Below, piece after piece: positions 6,167 through 49,552 of a DNA stretch of 64,000 nucleotides. The notes beneath the pieces were generated by a model. The model had not been told where the DNA came from. It searched no databases and worked only from the letters and a program-made list of their open reading frames with translations. Position 1 is the first letter of the stretch; each line of letters opens with the position of its first letter. This DNA comes from Halorussus salilacus (lineage in GTDB: Archaea > Halobacteriota > Halobacteria > Halobacteriales > Haladaptataceae): NCBI RefSeq assembly GCF_024138125.1, contig NZ_CP099993.1, forward strand, positions 310,001 to 374,000, written 5' to 3'. The position numbers and the translations under genes were made by a program.

Positions 6167-6715
6167 TCACTTCTCTTCGAGTTTCAACTCCTCGACCGCC
6201 TCCGGGTCGGTCTCGGGCGCGAGCGCGACGGCGTCGATCCGAGCGACCCGCTTGCCGGTCCTGACGCCGGAGACGCCGGGCGCGACGAACCGCGGGGCGT
6301 CGAGCGGTTCGCCCGCACTGCGATGGGCGAGCAGGCCGTCCAGCGCGGCCGAGACCGGTACGCAGACCCGATAGCCGTCGTCGCCCTCGACCGCGACGTG
6401 GGTGGTCGCGTCCGGGGCCTCGGCGGCGTCGAGGAGGTCCGAGACGGGGACGCCGGTCCACGGCCCGCCGATCTCGCTGCCCGAGGCGCATCGGAACGAC
6501 CACGCCGCGGTCTCGGGGTCGGCGTCGACGCCGACCCCGAGACCGCCGTCGCCGTCGCTGTCACGCTCCCCCGAGTGGACGGGGACCGCCAGTTCCCGGC
6601 TTCCGACCACGGTCACCGGCTCGCGGCCGTCGAGTCGGCCGTTTCGGTGGATTCGGTCGGTCCGCTCGCCGTCCGACTCGCGCGATTCGGTTGCGGCGGA
6701 TTGCCCACCTGACAT
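6167..6715 (-). CDS. Molybdopterin-dependent oxidoreductase-like protein (sulfite oxidase fold)
   Basis: The 182-residue protein contains a sulfite-oxidase-type molybdopterin-binding domain. WSFRCASGSEIGGPWTGVPV resembles the C-x-G-x-W-x-G-V/I-P-L region whose Cys binds molybdenum. It is followed by YRVCVPVSAALDG and PRFVAPGVSGVRTGKRVARI, like the R/K-V-W-V-x-R-I end of the fold. It is shorter than typical enzymes and has no signal peptide. A perfect 40-bp palindrome (6507-6546) sits in its coding sequence. Whether it binds cofactor is uncertain. Convergent with the gene at 5967. Confidence 0.65.
   Translation of the reverse strand: MSGGQSAATESRESDGERTDRIHRNGRLDGREPVTVVGSRELAVPVHSGERDSDGDGGLGVGVDADPETAAWSFRCASGSEIGGPWTGVPVSDLLDAAEAPDATTHVAVEGDDGYRVCVPVSAALDGLLAHRSAGEPLDAPRFVAPGVSGVRTGKRVARIDAVALAPETDPEAVEELKLEEK
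6507..6546. repeat. Perfect 40-bp palindrome inside a coding sequence
   Basis: Bases 6507-6526 are the exact reverse complement of 6527-6546, with no spacer. It encodes the GVGVDADPETA region of the molybdopterin-oxidoreductase-like protein. A zero-spacer 40-bp palindrome is far beyond chance in coding DNA. Confidence 0.9.
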
Positions 6716-8841: not shown

Positions 8842-9027
8842 CGCAATCTAATTTAGATTCCTACATTAATATATTTTTATTTTACCACATAGGAAAAATT
8901 AATAAGGGGTGGGTCTGGACAGATAATGTTCCGGTCGATGGCATGGAACATCCGAGCGACCGATTGGTAGCGGGGTATCGAGTGTGGGCGGCGAGGACCG
9001 CACGAGGAACTTGCCTGAGGACTTCGC

Positions 9028-9399
9028 CCGGGCCGTCCCTTCATGCACCCGCGGGGGTTCCAGTGCTGGCTCACGTCGGCGTTCTCGTAGCCGCCGGGGC
9101 CGGGGCTGGCCTCCTCGTCGTGATAGACCTACTCGGCCCGGATGAGAACCCCGTTCTTCATGTAGAAGTTGAGCGCGCACGACTGGGTGCAGTTGGGGTG
9201 ACACCCCGTCCAGTCCACCGAGTCGCAGGCGTAGATGTCGTGGTAGACCTGCTCCCAGTCGCGATTCGTACGACTTGAGCGGGTTGTCCACGTCGGTCAC
9301 CGGGTCGATGCTCTGGGTCGCCTCCCAGCCGCTCCCGAGGAGCGCGCCGACGGTGCCCGCTCCGGCACCGCGGATGAAGTCGCGCCGCGAGAGGCTCAC
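9028..9399 (-). pseudogene. Truncated DMSO-reductase-family molybdoenzyme alpha subunit
   Basis: From the GTG at 9399 the frame reads a Tat signal (SLSRRDFIRGAGAG, then IDPVTDVDNPLKSYE). A one-base insertion near 9265 shifts it. In the second frame it continues DWEQVYHDIYACDSVDWTG, CHPNCTQSC (iron-sulfur ligands), NFYMKNGVLIRAE, a TAG where CAG is expected, then VYHDEEASPGPGGYEN and NPRGCMKG. This is the N-terminal 4Fe-4S region of a NarG/DmsA-type catalytic subunit. Homology stops near 9028, so more than 80 percent of the gene is missing. It is a dead remnant of an anaerobic respiratory enzyme. Frameshift, stop and truncation are seen directly. Confidence 0.75.
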
Positions 9400-12468: not shown

Positions 12469-13152
12469 GTGCTATCGGTCGAGCTTCACGCCCACTCGTC
12501 GCTCTCGTACGACGGCCGCGACGACGTCGACCTCCTGCTGGAGCAGGCGGCGGCCGTCGGACTCGACGCGCTGGCCATCACCGACCACGACGAAATCGAC
12601 GCGAGCCTCGAAGCCGCCGAAAAGGCCGACGAGTACGGCCTCGTCGCCATTCCGGGAATCGAGATCAGCTCTGCGGCGGGCCACGTCCTCGGTCTCGGCG
12701 TGCGCGAGCGGGTCCCCGCCGGACTCTCGTTCGGGGAGACGCTCGAACGGATTCGAGATCAGGGCGGCGTCGCGGTCGTCCCCCACCCGTTCCAGAAGTC
12801 CCGCAGCGGCGTCATGGCGAACATCACCGAGACCGAACTCGCGACCGCCGACGCCATCGAGGTGTACAACTCCCGGTTGTTGACCGGCCGCGGGAACCGA
12901 AAGGCGAGGGAGTTTGCCGAGCGCCGCGGTCTCCCCCAGACCGCCGGGAGCGACGCCCACATCAGCGAGATGGTCGGGCAGGCCGTCACCTGCATCGACG
13001 CCGAGGAGCCCACCACCGAGGCCGTCCTCGACGCGATTCGCGAGGGACGGACCACGGTCGAGGGCAAGCGGACCCCGTGGCGGATCAGCTTCCGACAGGC
13101 CGCGGGCGGGGCCAAGCGCCGGGTGAAGAACCGACTCGCTGAACTCCTATGA
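12469..13152 (+). CDS. PHP-domain phosphoesterase
   Basis: The 227-residue protein has a full polymerase-and-histidinol-phosphatase metal site: HAHSSLSYDG at the N-terminus, ITDHDEID, an Glu in IPGIEIS, VPHPF and GSDAHIS. Such proteins hydrolyse phosphoesters (nucleoside, sugar or trinucleotide phosphates). The GTG at 12469 (VLSVELHAH) puts the first metal motif at residue 6-8, as usual in the family; the open frame further upstream is judged untranslated. Its stop overlaps the start of the PP-loop gene by 4 bases, so the two are translationally coupled. Substrate not predictable. Confidence 0.85.
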   Translation: MLSVELHAHSSLSYDGRDDVDLLLEQAAAVGLDALAITDHDEIDASLEAAEKADEYGLVAIPGIEISSAAGHVLGLGVRERVPAGLSFGETLERIRDQGGVAVVPHPFQKSRSGVMANITETELATADAIEVYNSRLLTGRGNRKAREFAERRGLPQTAGSDAHISEMVGQAVTCIDAEEPTTEAVLDAIREGRTTVEGKRTPWRISFRQAAGGAKRRVKNRLAELL

Positions 13153-14315
13153 TGCGCGGCGCGTCGGCTGACCGGGTCGCGGGGGCCCTCGCCGACCGCG
13201 ACCCGCTCCCGGGCGCGGATTCCGGCGCTCGCGCCGGAATCCGCGGTTTCGCCGGAGAACTCCCCGACGGCCGACTCGTCCGCGACGTGCTCGGCCGCCA
13301 GCCGCTTTTCGTCGAGGGCGGCGAGTCGGGCGGAAGCGACTGGTCGTTCTCGCCCGCCGACCTCGCCGACCCCGAACCCCTCCCGGCGGGATGCGTGCGC
13401 TCGGAATCGGGCGTCGAGCGGGTCTTCTCGCTCCCGGAGCCTTCACCGACCCGCGAGGGCGTCCCGGACCGCGACCGCGCGGTCGCGGTCCGGGACGCCC
13501 TCGCGGGAAGCCTCGATTCGGTGGCCGAAGCCGAGGTCGAGAGCGAGGCCGAGGACGCCGACGAAGGCGACCTCGCGGTCGCCTTCTCCGGCGGCGTGGA
13601 CTCGACGGTCGTCGCGAGCGCCATCGACGCGCCCCTCTACGTCGTCGGGTTCCCGGACAGCCACGACGTGAGCGCTGCCCGGCGGGCCGCCCGACTCATG
13701 GGCCGCGAGGACGACCTCCGGGTGGTCGAACTCGACGCCTCGGACCTCGAACGCGCGGTCCCCGAGGTCGCCCGCGCGACCGGCCGGACGAACGCGATGG
13801 ACGTTCAGATAGCGCTCCCACTCTTTCTCGCGGGCCAGCGGGCGGCCCGCGACGGCCACGACCGCCTCGCGGTCGGACAGGGGGCCGACGAACTGTTCGG
13901 CGGCTACGCCAAGGTGGCCCGCGCGCCCGAGGACCCCCGAGTCGAGGCCGACACGGTCCGGGGGGCCACCCGCGAGGTGATCCGCACCCTCCCCGCCCAA
14001 CTGGAGCGGGACGTGCTCGCGCTCCGGGCGGCGGGCGTCGAACCCGTCGCGCCCCTGCTCGACGACCGGGTGGTTCGGGCGGCGCTCGGGCTTCCGGGCG
14101 ACCTGCTCGTGGACTCGCGGGGCGAGCGCAAGAAGGCGCTCCGGCTCGCCGCCCGCGAGTTCGTCCCCGACTCGGTGGCGTTCCGCGAGAAGAAGGCGGT
14201 CCAGTACGGGAGTCTGGTCGCCCGGGAACTCGACCGGCTGGCTCGACGGGCGGGGTTCAAGCGCCGGATGGACGACCACGTCTCGAAGTACGTCGAGTCG
14301 CGGGTCGGCGGTTAG
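13149..14315 (+). CDS. Asparagine-synthetase-like PP-loop ATPase
   Basis: The 388-residue protein carries the C-terminal half of asparagine synthetase B. The PP-loop is FSGGVDST at residues 146-153, followed by GQGADELFGGYAK near 240 and FREKKAVQYGS near 340. The N-terminus is short and has no Cys2 glutaminase nucleophile, so it cannot use glutamine as class II enzymes do. It may use ammonia or adenylate another substrate. Overlap with the PHP gene suggests a shared pathway. A perfect 58-bp palindrome encodes residues about 101-120, a variable linker before the PP-loop. Two start codons in tandem (13149, 13152) are both possible. Confidence 0.75.
   Translation: MMRGASADRVAGALADRDPLPGADSGARAGIRGFAGELPDGRLVRDVLGRQPLFVEGGESGGSDWSFSPADLADPEPLPAGCVRSESGVERVFSLPEPSPTREGVPDRDRAVAVRDALAGSLDSVAEAEVESEAEDADEGDLAVAFSGGVDSTVVASAIDAPLYVVGFPDSHDVSAARRAARLMGREDDLRVVELDASDLERAVPEVARATGRTNAMDVQIALPLFLAGQRAARDGHDRLAVGQGADELFGGYAKVARAPEDPRVEADTVRGATREVIRTLPAQLERDVLALRAAGVEPVAPLLDDRVVRAALGLPGDLLVDSRGERKKALRLAAREFVPDSVAFREKKAVQYGSLVARELDRLARRAGFKRRMDDHVSKYVESRVGG
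13214..13245. repeat. 15-bp-arm inverted repeat inside the PP-loop gene
   Basis: Arms 13214-13228 and 13231-13245 are perfectly complementary with a 2-base spacer. It encodes the residue 22-33 region (GADSGARAGIRG), another low-conservation part of the protein. Confidence 0.85.
13450..13507. repeat. Perfect 58-bp palindrome inside the PP-loop gene
   Basis: Bases 13450-13478 are the exact reverse complement of 13479-13507 (29-bp arms, no spacer). It encodes the REGVPDRDRAVAVRDALAG segment. This is the longest perfect palindrome found in the window; DNA of this form can extrude a cruciform and is usually unstable. Confidence 0.92.
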
Positions 14316-18217: not shown

Positions 18218-19492
18218 ATGAGTACGGACCACAACATCTTCGTCACCGAGGAGACCGTCGAGGGCGAGTCCGAGGGTCCCCTCGCCGACGCCACCGTCGC
18301 GGTCAAGGACAACATCAGCACCGAGGGCGTGCGCACGACCTGCGGCTCGGAGATGCTCGACGACTACGTGCCGCCCTACGACGCGACCGTCGTCGAACGC
18401 CTGAAGGCGGCGGGTGCGACCGTCGTCGGCAAGGCCAACATGGACGAGTTCGGGATGGGCTCGACCACCGAGACCTCGGCGTTCGGTCCGGTCGACAACC
18501 CCGCCGCGCCCGGCCGGGTCCCCGGCGGTTCGTCGGGCGGGAGCGCGGCCGCGGTCGCCGCGGGCGCGGCCGACCTCGCGCTCGGGTCCGATACGGGCGG
18601 GTCGGTCCGCAACCCCGCGGCGTTCTGCGGCGTGGTCGGCATCAAGCCCACCTACGGGCTGGTCTCGCGCTACGGCCTCGTTGCCTACGCCAACAGCCTC
18701 GAACAGATCGGCCCGCTCGCGCCCACAGTCGAGGCTGCCGCCGAACTGCTGGACGTAATCGCTGGCCCGGACGAGCGCGACGCCACGACGCGCGAGGAAG
18801 GAGCCGACAGCGACTACGCCGGGGCCGCCGACGGCGACGTCGGCGGGACGACCGTCGGCGTCCCCACCGAACTCGTGGAGGGCGCAGACGAGGGCGTCGT
18901 CGAGCGCTTCGAGGAAGCGCTCGACGACCTCCGCGCGCAGGGCGCGACGGTCGAGGAGGTCTCGCTCCCCTCGGTCGAGCACGCGGTGGAAGCCTACTAC
19001 GTCATCGCGATGTCGGAGGCCTCCTCGAACCTCGCGCGCTTCGACGGCGTCCGGTACGGAAATTCCGGCGGCTTCGAAGGCAACTGGAACGAGGCGTTCA
19101 GCGAGTCCCGCGAGGCCTTCGGCGAGGAGGTCAAGCGACGCATCCTGCTGGGCACCTACGCGCTCTCGGCGGGCTACCACGACAAGTACTACAAGCAGGC
19201 CCAGAACGCCCGAGCGTGGGTCAAGCAGGACTTCGACGAGGCGTTCGCCGACGTGGACGTGCTGGCGAGCCCCACGATGCCGACCCCGCCGTTCGAGCGG
19301 GGCGAGAGTCTGGACGACCCGCTCCAGATGTACCTCGCCGACGCCAACACCGTGCCGGTGAATCTGGCCGACCTGCCCGCCATCTCGGTTCCTGCTGGCG
19401 AAGTCGAGGGCGGCCCGGTCGGCATCCAGTTCGTCGGCCCGGCGTTCGGCGAGGAGGAGATCATCCGGGTCGGGAGTGCGGTGGAGAACTGA
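18218..19492 (+). CDS. gatA: Asp-tRNA(Asn)/Glu-tRNA(Gln) amidotransferase subunit GatA
   Basis: The 424-residue protein is the amidase-signature subunit that releases ammonia from glutamine for the GatCAB complex. The catalytic Ser-cisSer-Lys triad is visible as Lys30 in AVKDNIS, a Ser in PGGSSGGSAAAVAAG and a Ser in GSDTGGSVRNPAAFCG. The C-terminal ASPTMPTPPF and GGPVGIQFVGP are typical. It is slightly shorter than bacterial GatA (about 485), as in other haloarchaea. GatB is not in this window. Confidence 0.95.
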   Translation: MSTDHNIFVTEETVEGESEGPLADATVAVKDNISTEGVRTTCGSEMLDDYVPPYDATVVERLKAAGATVVGKANMDEFGMGSTTETSAFGPVDNPAAPGRVPGGSSGGSAAAVAAGAADLALGSDTGGSVRNPAAFCGVVGIKPTYGLVSRYGLVAYANSLEQIGPLAPTVEAAAELLDVIAGPDERDATTREEGADSDYAGAADGDVGGTTVGVPTELVEGADEGVVERFEEALDDLRAQGATVEEVSLPSVEHAVEAYYVIAMSEASSNLARFDGVRYGNSGGFEGNWNEAFSESREAFGEEVKRRILLGTYALSAGYHDKYYKQAQNARAWVKQDFDEAFADVDVLASPTMPTPPFERGESLDDPLQMYLADANTVPVNLADLPAISVPAGEVEGGPVGIQFVGPAFGEEEIIRVGSAVEN

Positions 19493-24776: not shown

Positions 24777-24819
24777 CTCCGGGTCGCTGGCCGAGGTCGC
24801 CTCGGCCAGCGACCCGGAG
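24777..24819. repeat. 20-bp-arm perfect inverted repeat
   Basis: Arms 24777-24796 and 24800-24819 are perfectly complementary with a 3-base loop. It lies in the 196-base gap between two divergent genes, where a terminator is not expected. Nearby, around 24868-24882, CAATAAC and GTTATTG form a second small inverted repeat that overlaps the likely TATA position of the next gene. Confidence 0.8.
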
Positions 24820-26103: not shown

Positions 26104-27713
26104 CTCTTTCGAAGGCGCTCGCGGACCGCCTCGCGCTCGACGGTCCCCGACGCGGTCCGGGGGAGTTCGTCGGCGAACTCGACCGTTCTGGGGCGCTTGT
26201 ACCCCGCGAGGCGGCCCTCGAAGTGGGCTTCGAGGGCCGCCACCGAGAGCTCCGCATCCCCCTCGGGGACGACCAGCGCCGCGACGCGCTCGCCCCACTC
26301 CTCGTCGTCGAGGCCGACGACCGCGGCGTCGCGCACCCCCGAGTGCTCGCGGAGGACCTCGACCACCTCGCCGGGGTGGACGTTCTCGCCGCCGGTGACG
26401 ATGCGGTCCTCGCGGCGGTTGAGCACCCAGATACGGCCGCCCTCGTCGCGGTAGCCCACGTCGCCGGTGCGGAGGCCGTGGGGCCCGAACGCCGCCGCGG
26501 TGGCCTCCCGGTCGCCGTAGTACCCCGCCATCACGGTCGGTCCCGAGACCGCGAGTTCGCCGACCTCGCCCTCGGGCAGTGGATTCCCGTCCCCGTCGAT
26601 TACGGTCACGTCGGTCCACAGGAGCGGTCGGCCGACGGTGCCCCGGTGCTCGAACGCCTCGCGGGGCCGTGCGGTCGCTATCTGGGAGGCGGTCTCGGTC
26701 ATCCCGTAGGTCGGGTGGACCGGTACGCCGAGCGTCTCGCAGCGCGATATCAGGTCGTCGGAGGCGGGCGCGCCCCCCAGCAGGACGAATCGCAGGGAAT
26801 CCGCGAGTCCCTCCCCCTCGCTCGCGTCGAGCATCCGCCGGAGCATCGTCGGCACCAGCGAGACGCCAGTCGCCTCGTACTCCGCGATTGCGTCGACCGC
26901 GGCCCCGGCGTCGAACCCCTCTTGCAGGACCACGGTCGCGCCGTAGAGCGCCGACCGGAGGACGACCGAGAGCCCGCCCATGTGGTACATCGACAGACAG
27001 AGGAGCCACCGGTCGTCGGGGGTCGCGCCCAGCCTGAACGCCGAGGCGGTCGCGCTCGCGAGGAAGTTCCCCATCGAGAGTTCGACCGCCTTCGGGTCGC
27101 CGGTGGTGCCCGACGTGAACAGCATCGCCTGCGTGTCGCTACGCGACCACTCGGCGGGCGCGAAGTCGCCGGAACCGGCGACTTCGCGCCCGGAGTCGGC
27201 GAGCTCTCCCCCAGAATCGAGGTCGCCGCGCTCCGCGGCGCGGAGCGCGGCGACCGACTCGCATTCGGGCGAATCGACCGACGCGACAGGAAGCTCCGGG
27301 ACCGCGGCCGGGAGGTCCGAGCCCGCGACCGCCTCCGCGACGGCGACCGCGTCGGCCTCGGTCTCGCGCTCGCAGACCACGAGGGTCAGGTCGGCCGTCT
27401 CGGCCTGCCGGGCCAGTTCGGGCCGGGCGAGCCGGGCGTTCAGGGGCACCAGCACCGCGCCGAGTCGCATCGCGGCGTGGACCAGCCGGACGAACGCGAC
27501 ACTGGTCTCCATCAGCACGCCGAGGTGGTCGCCCTCCCGGACGCCCAGCGCCGCGAGTCGGCCCGCGGTCTCCGAAACGGCCGAGTCGAGTTCGGCGTAT
27601 GTCCGCTCGGTCCCGTCTCCGGCCTCCACGAGCGCGGTCGCCTCGGGCGAGGTCCGCGCCCGGTGGGTCAGCCAGTCGCGGGTGGTCTCCGAATCCCGAC
27701 CGTTCTCACGCAT
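26100..27713 (-). CDS. menE: o-Succinylbenzoate--CoA ligase MenE
   Basis: The 537-residue AMP-forming acyl-CoA synthetase shows the P-loop LFTSGTTGDPKAV, YGMTETASQ and TGDVGYRDEGG, with the C-terminal lysine motif in LPRTASGTVERE. Its place directly after menA-menC identifies it as MenE, activating o-succinylbenzoate in menaquinone synthesis. It overlaps menC by 8 bases. Around residues 150-195 a low-complexity linker (ERGDLDSGGELADSGREVAG) is encoded by two long inverted repeats, probably a lineage-specific insertion. The ATG at 27713 is preferred over an arginine-rich upstream extension. Confidence 0.9.
   Translation of the reverse strand: MRENGRDSETTRDWLTHRARTSPEATALVEAGDGTERTYAELDSAVSETAGRLAALGVREGDHLGVLMETSVAFVRLVHAAMRLGAVLVPLNARLARPELARQAETADLTLVVCERETEADAVAVAEAVAGSDLPAAVPELPVASVDSPECESVAALRAAERGDLDSGGELADSGREVAGSGDFAPAEWSRSDTQAMLFTSGTTGDPKAVELSMGNFLASATASAFRLGATPDDRWLLCLSMYHMGGLSVVLRSALYGATVVLQEGFDAGAAVDAIAEYEATGVSLVPTMLRRMLDASEGEGLADSLRFVLLGGAPASDDLISRCETLGVPVHPTYGMTETASQIATARPREAFEHRGTVGRPLLWTDVTVIDGDGNPLPEGEVGELAVSGPTVMAGYYGDREATAAAFGPHGLRTGDVGYRDEGGRIWVLNRREDRIVTGGENVHPGEVVEVLREHSGVRDAAVVGLDDEEWGERVAALVVPEGDAELSVAALEAHFEGRLAGYKRPRTVEFADELPRTASGTVEREAVRERLRKS
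27155..27254. repeat. Two long inverted repeats inside menE
   Basis: First: arms 27155-27172 and 27175-27192 (18 bp, 2-base spacer). Second: arms 27222-27237 and 27239-27254 (16 bp, 1-base spacer). Both are perfect and together encode the linker around residues 150-190 of MenE. Confidence 0.88.
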
Positions 27714-35083: not shown

Positions 35084-36940
35084 CTATCCGAGTCGGTCGG
35101 CCACCCGACCCGCCAGTTCCTCGCGGAACCGATGGCTCGACTCCGAGTCGGTGACGACCTCCACGACCTGCGTCCCCTCGCTCCCGACCGACTCGCGGAA
35201 CGCCGACCGGAACGAGGGCAGGCCGTCGACGCGCTCGAACTCCAGCCCGTAGATGTCGCCGGTGGGCTCGAAGTCGAGGCCGTGGGGCGTGCGGAACTGC
35301 TCGGTGAAGGGCGGGTCGAACTCCTCGATGGGGAGCATGTGGAAGATGCCGCCGCCGTCGTTGTTTATGAGGACGACGGTCGCATCGACCCCGCACCGCG
35401 AAATCGCGAGCAGGCCGTTCATGTCGTGGTAGTACGCGAGGTCGCCGGTCACGATTACGAGCGGGTCGTCGGTGGCGCTCCCCGCGCCGAGTCCCGTGCT
35501 CGCGATGCCGTCGATGCCGCTCGCGCCGCGGTTGCCCAGCACCGTCAGGTCGGCCGCCCGGGGTCGGCCGAACCGGTCCAGATCCCGGACCGGCATGCTG
35601 TTCGAGACCATCACGGTCGCGGGGTCGGGGGCGTCCTCGGCGACCGCCGAGAGGACGCCGCCCTCGAAGAGTCGCTCCTCGCGGGCGTCGGCGACGAGGT
35701 CCCAGTAGCGGCGCTCGGCGTCGGCGAAGCGGGCGCGCCACGCTTCGGTCGCGTCCCCTCCGTCTCTCTCGCCCCCTCCGCCTCCCGCGGCGGAACCGAG
35801 ACCCGACGCGAGTCGCCGAGCGACTCGCGTCGGGTCGGCCGCGAGCAGGTCGGTCGCGGTGAACGTCGCCTCGCGCCATCCCGCCGCGGGGTCGACGAGG
35901 AACTGGCGGGCGTCGCTCGATTCGAGGTACCGGCGCAGGACCTTCGAGGTCGGGGACGCGCCGAAGCGCACGACGACCTCGGGGTCGGGCCACGAGTCGC
36001 CGACCGCGTCGAGGTAGCCGTCGTAGCCGCCGAGGACCAACGGGGCCTCCGGGCCGACGGGAGTGCTCTCGCTGGCGTCGAGAGCACTCCCGTCGTGGCC
36101 GAACCGGTGGTCCGAGAGCGGGTCGGCGAGGACCGGGAAGCCGGTCGCTCGCGCCAGCGCCGCGAGCGCGTCGCGCTCGGGCGCTGGCGCGTCGGTCGGT
36201 CCGACCACGAACAGGCCGCGGTCGGCGTCGGAGAGGGCGTCGCGCACCCGGCGCAGGTCGTCATCCGCAAGCTCCGGGCGACCCCCCGCGGTTCGGACGA
36301 AGGGACCCTCCCGGCCCCCGGCGGCGAGGGGGTTCTCGTCGGCGAAGCCGTCGGGCACGTCACCTGGCACCTCGGTCGGTTCGAGGGGCTTGCGGAACGG
36401 GACGTTGAGGTGGACCGGACCCGGCGGGGTGCCGGTCGCCTGCGCGAGCGCGCGTGCCGCGGCCGTCCGGAGCGACCGGAGCTTCCGGGCGTCGGCTTCC
36501 GGTTCCGCGAGGTCGGCGTACCACCGGACCGCGTCGCCGTAGAGCTTCTGCTGGTCTATGGTCTGGTTCGCGCCCGAGTCCCGGAGTTCCGGGGGTCGGT
36601 CGGCGGTCAGCACGAGCATCGGAACGCGGGCCTGACTCGCCTCGATGACCGCGGGATGGAAGTTCGCCGCGGCCGTTCCGGAGGTGCAGACCAGCGGGGT
36701 GACCTCGCCGGTCCGCTTGGCCCGGCCGAGCGCGAAGAAGGCCGCCGACCGCTCGTCGAGGTGCGAGAACGCCCGAATCTCGCTCTCGGCGAACGCGACC
36801 GTCAGGGGCGTCGAGCGGCTTCCGGGCGCGATGCAGACCGCCTCGACCCCGGCGGCTTCGAGTTCGGCGACGAGCGCCCGGGCCCAGAGGGTGTTCCGAT
36901 TCGGGGCGGGACCGGAACCGGGGTCGTCGCGGTCGGTCAT
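35084..36940 (-). CDS. menD: SEPHCHC synthase MenD
   Basis: The 618-residue ThDP enzyme joins 2-oxoglutarate and isochorismate in menaquinone synthesis. It shows CIAPGSRSTPLTVAFAE at the N-terminus, VCTSGTAAANFHPAV, LTADRPPELRDSGANQTIDQ and the ThDP/Mg loop VLINNDGGGIFHMLP near the C-terminus. It overlaps menF by 4 bases. Two intragenic inverted repeats lie in variable loops (35800-35836 and 36055-36095). An arginine-rich upstream extension of the frame was rejected. Confidence 0.93.
   Translation of the reverse strand: MTDRDDPGSGPAPNRNTLWARALVAELEAAGVEAVCIAPGSRSTPLTVAFAESEIRAFSHLDERSAAFFALGRAKRTGEVTPLVCTSGTAAANFHPAVIEASQARVPMLVLTADRPPELRDSGANQTIDQQKLYGDAVRWYADLAEPEADARKLRSLRTAAARALAQATGTPPGPVHLNVPFRKPLEPTEVPGDVPDGFADENPLAAGGREGPFVRTAGGRPELADDDLRRVRDALSDADRGLFVVGPTDAPAPERDALAALARATGFPVLADPLSDHRFGHDGSALDASESTPVGPEAPLVLGGYDGYLDAVGDSWPDPEVVVRFGASPTSKVLRRYLESSDARQFLVDPAAGWREATFTATDLLAADPTRVARRLASGLGSAAGGGGGERDGGDATEAWRARFADAERRYWDLVADAREERLFEGGVLSAVAEDAPDPATVMVSNSMPVRDLDRFGRPRAADLTVLGNRGASGIDGIASTGLGAGSATDDPLVIVTGDLAYYHDMNGLLAISRCGVDATVVLINNDGGGIFHMLPIEEFDPPFTEQFRTPHGLDFEPTGDIYGLEFERVDGLPSFRSAFRESVGSEGTQVVEVVTDSESSHRFREELAGRVADRLG
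35800..35836. repeat. 17-bp-arm inverted repeat inside menD
   Basis: Arms 35800-35816 and 35820-35836 are perfectly complementary with a 3-base spacer. It encodes the ADPTRVARRLASGLG region next to a glycine-rich low-complexity loop. Confidence 0.87.
36055..36095. repeat. 17-bp-arm inverted repeat inside menD
   Basis: Arms 36055-36071 and 36079-36095 are perfectly complementary with a 7-base spacer. It encodes the HDGSALDASESTPVG stretch, a probable surface loop. Confidence 0.87.
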
Positions 36941-48475: not shown

Positions 48476-49452
48476 CGATCCGCTCCGTCGTGTACACGAC
48501 CGAGGGCGCGACCGTCCACACCGACCTCGAAACCGCCCGCGACGCGCCCGGGACGACGTGGGTCCGGGCGTCCGGCGCGTCGCCCCGGGAACTCGACCGG
48601 GTCGCCGAGACGTTCGGAATCCACTCGCTGTCGGTCGAGGACGTGCGCAACACCGTCCGGCCGAAGACCGAGGAGTTCGACGACCACGCGTTCGTCCTGC
48701 TCAAGACCGCGACCCTCCGCCGGGGCGAGACCACCTTCCGGGAGGAGATCGGGACCGAATCGCTCGGCCTGTTCGTCGGCGAGGACTGGCTGGTGACCCT
48801 CTCGACCGAGGAGGTCGACGCGGTCGAGCGCGTCTGGGGCATGGTCGCCGCCGAGGAGGGGCGCATCCTCCGGCAGGGGCCCGACTTCGCCGCCTACCGC
48901 ATCGCCGACGCCATCGTCGACGAGTACTTCGAGGTGCTGGACGCCATCGAGGACCAGATCGAGGCGGTCGAGGAGAACGTGACCACCGCGACCGACACCG
49001 AGACGCTGGAGACCATCAACAACGTCCGGCGGGAGCTCCTCTCGTTCCGCAAGCTGCTGTGGCCCTCGCGGGAGGCGGTGGGGTACCTCGCCCGCGGCGA
49101 CCCCGAGCAGGTGCGCGAGCAGACCGAGAAGTACTATCGGGACGTGTACGACCACCTCGTCCAGTTGGTCGACCTGACGGAGACGTACCGCGACCTCGCC
49201 AGCGGCGCGCGCGACATCTACCTCAACACGCTGTCGCTTTCGACCAACGAGGTGATGAAGCGCCTGACCGTCGTGGCGACCATCGTCCTGCCGCTCACGT
49301 TCGTCGCTGGCGTCTACGGCATGAACTTCGAGGGAAGCGCGTACAACATGCCCGAACTCGGGTGGGCGTTCGGCTACCCCGCGGTGATGCTCGGAATGCT
49401 CGGGATGACGGTGATTCTGGTGCTGTACTTCCGGGAGTCGGAGTACGTCTGA
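48472..49452 (+). CDS. corA: CorA-type magnesium/cobalt transporter
   Basis: The 326-residue protein has an N-terminal acidic cytoplasmic domain, a long helix region (EYFEVLDAIEDQIEAVEENV) and two C-terminal transmembrane helices. The selectivity motif GMN lies in GVYGMNFEGS, near residue 285. CorA forms pentameric Mg2+ channels. The GTG start overlaps the preceding small gene. A perfect 38-bp palindrome overlaps the stop codon and likely ends the transcript. Confidence 0.92.
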   Translation: MTIRSVVYTTEGATVHTDLETARDAPGTTWVRASGASPRELDRVAETFGIHSLSVEDVRNTVRPKTEEFDDHAFVLLKTATLRRGETTFREEIGTESLGLFVGEDWLVTLSTEEVDAVERVWGMVAAEEGRILRQGPDFAAYRIADAIVDEYFEVLDAIEDQIEAVEENVTTATDTETLETINNVRRELLSFRKLLWPSREAVGYLARGDPEQVREQTEKYYRDVYDHLVQLVDLTETYRDLASGARDIYLNTLSLSTNEVMKRLTVVATIVLPLTFVAGVYGMNFEGSAYNMPELGWAFGYPAVMLGMLGMTVILVLYFRESEYV

Positions 49453-49488
49453 GACCGGTTCCGGACCGCGCGGTCCGGAACCGGTCTC
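49451..49488 (+). terminator. Perfect 38-bp palindrome at the corA stop codon
   Basis: Bases 49451-49469 are the exact reverse complement of 49470-49488, with no spacer, overlapping the last two bases of the corA stop. Terminator role is inferred from position. Confidence 0.75.
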
Positions 49489-49552
49489 AGGGGTCACGAC
49501 TCCGAGGGTTCAAGTAGGAGAAGGCGACCAGTCCTGCCCGGACGCTTCGCGC

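Follow-up and report, generated by a model that had tools for sequence, protein, structure and literature searches.

The 64,000-nucleotide stretch of the Halorussus salilacus genome analyzed here (contig NZ_CP099993.1, positions 310,001 to 374,000; hereafter the window, to which all unprefixed coordinates refer) carries a perfect palindrome of 58 bp at 13450-13507, inside an asparagine-synthase-like gene and composed of two 29-bp arms that are 100% complementary and separated by no spacer. In our interpretation, this palindrome arose when DNA synthesis switched template locally, a reading to which we assign a probability of about 0.85. It is one member of a population of roughly 1,000 comparable palindromes in the same genome, and the elevated rate is limited to only some Halorussus lineages.

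The host gene retains an intact reading frame, and its product matches the Pfam Asn_synthase family (PF00733; E 1.6e-28, 100.8 bits), with the SGGxDS PP-loop conserved in the alignment as SGGVDS, which together identify it as an Asn synthase C-terminal domain protein. Homologues are encoded in 46 of 59 related genomes and are mostly 74-81% identical within the genus. The features of this gene are as follows:

13149-14315, + strand: asparagine-synthase-like gene, 388 aa, intact frame (ORF list; Pfam PF00733)
13214-13245, unstranded: second palindrome in the host gene, arms 15+15, spacer 2, within an N-terminal region of species-specific insertion
13450-13478, + strand: left arm of the 58-mer, derived, encoding approximately TREGVPDRDR, not conserved (protein and codon alignment)
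13479-13507, + strand: right arm of the 58-mer, ancestral, encoding AVAVRDALAG (protein and codon alignment)
13587-13604, + strand: PP-loop SGGVDS of the synthetase domain, unaffected by the palindrome (sequence, alignment)

The N-terminal segment around 13214-13245 is short or missing in most orthologues.

Ancestral and derived arms were called from a protein and codon alignment of 30 Asn-synthase-like orthologues. The right arm aligns with the conserved motif AVxxLRDALxxSL; the left arm stands where orthologues have a variable xPxxD/DRE segment and includes three codons (+9 bp net) missing from all 29 other aligned orthologues. Because the right arm is conserved and the left arm is new, with three additional codons, the left arm is read as an inverted copy of the right. 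The initial annotation of the window had given the extent of the palindrome exactly (29 nt in each arm) and had correctly placed it ahead of the PP-loop, its end lying 79 bp before the SGGVDS codons. It had also proposed strand switching during replication, with orthologue alignment as the check, and the alignment supports this proposal: the segment occurs in this genome alone, its arms comprise an ancestral one and a lineage-specific inverted copy, and many other loci behave alike. The opposite outcome, orthologues with the same residues and no palindrome, was not seen, as the orthologues differ in the left-arm residues. In relatives (e.g. locus L002), the site reads GAC CGC GAG GCG GTC, in which inverted arms of 6 bp enclose a 3-nt loop; this sequence only approximates the true ancestor and would serve as a seed for re-priming. 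With DNA identity to the nearest orthologues reaching only about 82%, neither the precise sequence before the event nor how many steps it took can be reconstructed, and more than one event may have gone into building the left arm.

All palindrome counts in this study rest on genome samples, with perfect inverted repeats defined by an arm of at least 13 bp and a spacer of at most 8 nt unless otherwise stated. For H. salilacus, the sample together with the window, which overlaps one sample block by 10 kb, amounts to 464 kb and contains 148 such repeats, against 3 in 928 kb of a Markov-5 null and about 6 mirror repeats, a control for composition, in the same 464 kb. Extrapolation to the 3.04 Mb chromosome gives about 990 palindromes (Poisson range ~820-1,160). 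Every sampled 20 kb block holds between 3 and 9 of them, and they occur on both gene strands. Their arm lengths form a hump with a mode of 16-17 bp and no decaying tail, and most spacers measure 0-4 nt. No palindrome longer than the 58-mer was found in the 0.6 Mb sampled from this genome, and Markov-2 and Markov-5 simulations (928 kb each) yielded zero perfect short-spacer inverted repeats with an arm above 16 bp. At looser thresholds (arm at least 10, spacer at most 8), inverted repeats account for 15.4 bp per kb in H. salilacus, compared with an archaeal mean of 1.23 per kb at the same thresholds in a survey of 118,019 genomes (PMC13155455), a comparison that assumes both count base pairs. 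The window itself contains 18 perfect inverted repeats, among them:

6507-6546, unstranded: palindrome 20+20, spacer 0
24777-24819, unstranded: palindrome 20+20, spacer 3
27155-27192, unstranded: palindrome 18+18, spacer 2, within a protein linker of variable length
27221-27255, unstranded: palindrome 17+17, spacer 1, in the same linker as 27155-27192
49449-49490, unstranded: palindrome 21+21, spacer 0

Among the replicons, the 342 kb C2 has a density of 35 per 100 kb vs 32.5 on the chromosome, and the lower-GC replicons C3 (158,515 bp) and C4 (58,754 bp) have 1 palindrome in 80 kb (loci L262-L265). Density rises with local GC, and GC bins alone would predict about 9 on C3 and C4, as a rough estimate. 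A rich C2 beside poor C3 and C4 is consistent with, though no proof of, a process that has acted over time on DNA already resident, and palindrome density might serve as a clock for plasmid acquisition.

One ancestral arm paired with a new inverted copy was found at the Asn gene and at further loci, and codon alignments resolved three more palindromes of the window:

18896-18928, unstranded: palindrome 15+15, spacer 3, in a conserved gene of unchanged length, with arm-homogenizing substitutions
26210-26241, unstranded: palindrome 14+14, spacer 4, in a conserved gene, with one arm conserved and the other derived
35800-35836, unstranded: palindrome 17+17, spacer 3

At the site orthologous to 35800-35836, genome G001 has a shorter imperfect inverted repeat, an approximation to the true ancestor, and in H. 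salilacus the arms reach 17 bp. Comparison of H. salilacus (G000) with G013 revealed clustered changes predicted by the opposite arm at two sites: at L047:14742, GCG GGG has become GCT GGC through two synonymous changes matching the left arm, one result being a GCT codon, and at L047:15021 all the clustered changes copy the left arm. At L050:12688, an arm encoding LLRAA has been copied beyond the end of the aligned orthologue, lengthening the protein. In other species, palindromes lie inside protein insertions missing from most or all compared species (G009 L179:9877, G015 L184:10137, G012 L181:10543, and G003 L173:9570). Both arm-homogenizing substitutions and insertions thus occur, and the derived arm can lie on either side. 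Two of these insertions have further features. At G003 L173:9570-9627, a 27+27 palindrome stands where G001 has a shorter insertion, and the site acts as a hot spot for insertions in several species. At G015 L184:10137-10178, the palindrome adjoins tandem EALESVE-encoding units, resembling a yeast rad27 extension with duplication.

Under the template-switch reading, the strand being synthesized through the Asn gene would have copied the present right arm, after which its 3' end would have unpaired and re-primed on the short inverted repeat in the Asp-Arg-x-Ala-Val codons (GACCGC...GCGGTC). The arm would then have been copied back in the opposite sense before synthesis resumed on its original template, leaving the gene 9 bp longer. 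The event would have fallen in a tolerant linker ahead of the PP-loop, and the 58-mer presumably persisted because the gene stayed in frame and the linker is tolerant. The same type of event, repeated about 1,000 times in the lineage, would leave hairpin-like palindromes whose arms typically span 14-18 bp and whose spacers span 0-4 nt. From these patterns we infer the replication fork as the probable site, the exact re-priming seed, and a lineage-specific mutator condition that would raise the rate. Snap-back priming cannot directly leave a zero-nt spacer; this would require that the loop bases be complementary, that the loop be lost, or that synthesis switch to another strand.

The coding context of the palindromes bears marks of selection against damaging events. 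Frame is preserved in 25 of the 28 palindromes with both flanks matched to a homologue reading through the site, against a random expectation of about one third. Palindromes are depleted in coding DNA, which holds 55-62% of them vs 74-80% of random positions, and those within genes favor an axis placed so that codon position 1 pairs with position 3 (46 of 79 coding palindromes); both the depletion and the phase preference are expected if events strike everywhere and damaging ones are lost. Repeats with a full arm of at least 14 bp comprise 115 perfect cases vs 7 with inner mismatches, and fixed 15-bp arms give 93 perfect vs 39 with one mismatch, the latter ratio partly reflecting edge effects. 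This excess of perfect over slightly mismatched repeats suggests that most are young, quickly removed, or re-corrected.

Across the genus, the density of perfect repeats (arm at least 13) is strikingly uneven. It reaches 32.5 per 100 kb in H. salilacus, 17.9 in G010, 17.5 in G012, 13.3 in G002, and 9.0 in G015, with lower values in G003 (5.4), G009 (4.2), G001 and G005 (3.3 each), G006 and G017 (1.7 each), and G004 (0.8); none were found in the samples of G007, G008, G013, G014, and G016. Outgroup genera yielded 1 palindrome in 480 kb, or about 0.2 per 100 kb. The differences in density cannot be put down to GC content, because G008, at 68% GC, has none in 120 kb. A two-protein tree places H. 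salilacus and G010 as sisters, with the other high-rate species scattered, and no palindromes at shared orthologous positions were found between species. A tentative and somewhat doubtful extension of the template-switch reading is that some Halorussus lineages have a putative activity or defect through which their genomes acquire, at a high rate, inverted copies some 16-17 bp long; under this same extension, such a palindrome mutator would remodel protein linkers and would have been gained or lost several times within the genus.

The foremost rival, which we nonetheless regard as unlikely, is fold-back repair of broken ends, whereby the 3' single strand at a double-strand break folds and is extended, and the resulting hairpin is opened and rejoined. 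Such repair yields equal local inverted copies with short spacers, haloarchaea suffer DNA breaks on desiccation, and the high GC of the palindromes (82% on average vs 67% genome-wide) is what one would expect if hairpin stability matters. However, length-neutral corrections of quasi-palindromes, like the two synonymous changes at L047:14742, are explained more simply by template switches at the fork, and Rad50 and the adjoining Mre11 are present and look intact in the H. salilacus genome, the one in which Mre11 was inspected. Selection for RNA or DNA hairpins as terminators, attenuators, or protein-binding sites is improbable. Short perfect hairpins can function, and intergenic palindromes are over-represented, coding density being below random, but most palindromes lie inside ORFs, their positions are not conserved between species, they have no common sequence, T4/A4 tracts occur within 12 nt in 0 of 130, and congeners range in density between zero and 32 per 100 kb. 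The initial annotation had suggested that selection on the RNA might maintain the 58-mer; the unshared positions, the presence on both gene strands, the coding depletion, and the lack of terminator T-tracts tell against it. Its view of a lone freak palindrome likewise gives way to that of a population, and its overall interpretation is supported in part.

Insertion of a dispersed palindromic element family (REP, RPE, or transposon-derived) into the gene is very improbable, even though the number and size (~34 bp) of the palindromes resemble those of REP elements and several sites are insertions relative to orthologues. No shared sequence family or consensus was found among the palindromes, whose few common 10-mers resemble GC-rich codon strings; one arm is native sequence conserved in orthologues, unlike an inserted element; target-site duplications are absent at most sites; and no match to the reverse transcriptase family was found in the 18 Halorussus genomes. 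Enzymatic fragmentation and amplification make palindromic chimeras, so that chimeric reads might in principle have introduced the palindromes as an assembly or library artefact. This is more improbable still, given the retention of frame well above the random third, the substitution-only cases with synonymous changes, the low counts on C3 and C4 of the same assembly, and the presence of palindromes in several Halorussus genomes deposited separately and fragmented to differing degrees in assembly. Least probable of all is chance, or a coincidence of codon use in a GC-rich genome: haloarchaeal codon usage does make both strands GC-rich and similar, but the Markov-5 null and the mirror-repeat control fall far below the observed count, and the equal-GC congener G008 (0.68) has no palindrome in its 120 kb. 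The simulations thus uphold the earlier statement that the 58-mer is very unlikely by chance.

One point against the template-switch reading is that a survey of FEN1, Rad50, PolY, RNase HII, and Exonuclease VII across 18 Halorussus genomes returned no candidate gene loss that explains the lineage specificity. FEN1 (TIGR03674) is present and conserved in 18 of 18 genomes, as is RNase HII present in all 18, and Rad50 was detected in 18 of 18 through its N-terminal domain, the zinc-hook model being too insensitive for haloarchaea, with no signal in a Haloferax control. DinB/PolY is found in 17 of 18, its sole absence being from a 62%-complete genome. The Exonuclease VII large subunit is patchy, occurring in the low-rate G001, G004, G008, and G013 and also in the high-rate G012; its absence therefore does not track the rate. 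Absence is also not sufficient, because the gene is missing in 9 of 9 genomes of Haladaptatus (g3, the next genus in the family), and the one sampled genome has a low rate. Exonuclease VII large subunit genes with near-identical scores lie on the secondary contigs G013:C4, G004:C3, and G012:C4 (loci L240-L242); absent from most congeners, they look plasmid-borne and recently shared.

The type of mutation and its mechanism are already known; a density that is patchy within one archaeal genus appears to be unreported. Genome sequencing of yeast rad27 (FEN1) mutants has recorded events of this kind, one of them a perfect repeat whose 16-bp arms flank a 1-bp spacer (PMC5677150). Together with E. 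coli lacZ QP reporters (PMC6357072), this system shares with Halorussus the local inverted copy in which one arm templates the other, near-zero spacers, arms of about 16-18 bp, clusters of changes attributable to a single event, and insertions with or without duplication. Those systems concern rare laboratory mutations, however, whereas a wild Halorussus genome carries about 1,000 perfect products in the presence of FEN1 and RNase HII genes. Nematomorph mitochondrial genes (PMC6649704) also contain many perfect coding repeats with lineage-specific gain and loss, for which template switching was proposed, and share a preferred codon phase and perhaps, as the Halorussus counts are partly edge-affected, a scarcity of imperfect palindromes. 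Those palindromes are mitochondrial and reach 284 bp, whereas the Halorussus ones occupy the chromosome of a free-living archaeon, are mostly 28-42 bp, and vary within the genus.

Arm homogenization leading to multi-nucleotide and amino-acid changes in genes is likewise known from Saccharomyces proteins (PMC8604942) and RNA hairpins (PMC8794818), although template switching altered 39 genes across Saccharomyces strains (PMC8604942), compared with about 30 perfect repeats per 100 kb in Halorussus. REP and Rickettsia palindromic elements are also short, high in copy number, and sometimes located in genes, but they are dispersing sequence families, whereas the Halorussus palindromes have no consensus and derive from adjacent sequence. 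Surveys of perfect inverted repeats (PMC13155455, PMC4060949) concern the same kind of feature, and terms beginning with 'halo' are absent from their main texts. A standing density this high in a cellular chromosome, and ranging between zero and about 30 per 100 kb among members of a genus, was not found in the open-licence papers searched. Template-switch mutations are usually rare and inferred singly, and the range in Halorussus, from none to about 30 per 100 kb, offers a natural experiment on their suppressors and promoters. New peptide insertions in proteins can arise through reverse copying of a neighboring strand, and the clustered substitutions left by template switching would bias analyses that infer positive selection.

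Elsewhere in the window, the ORF at 8899-9399 (- strand) has a Tat-like signal (MSLSRRDFIRGAGAGT) at its start, followed by low-complexity sequence, and is possibly frameshifted.
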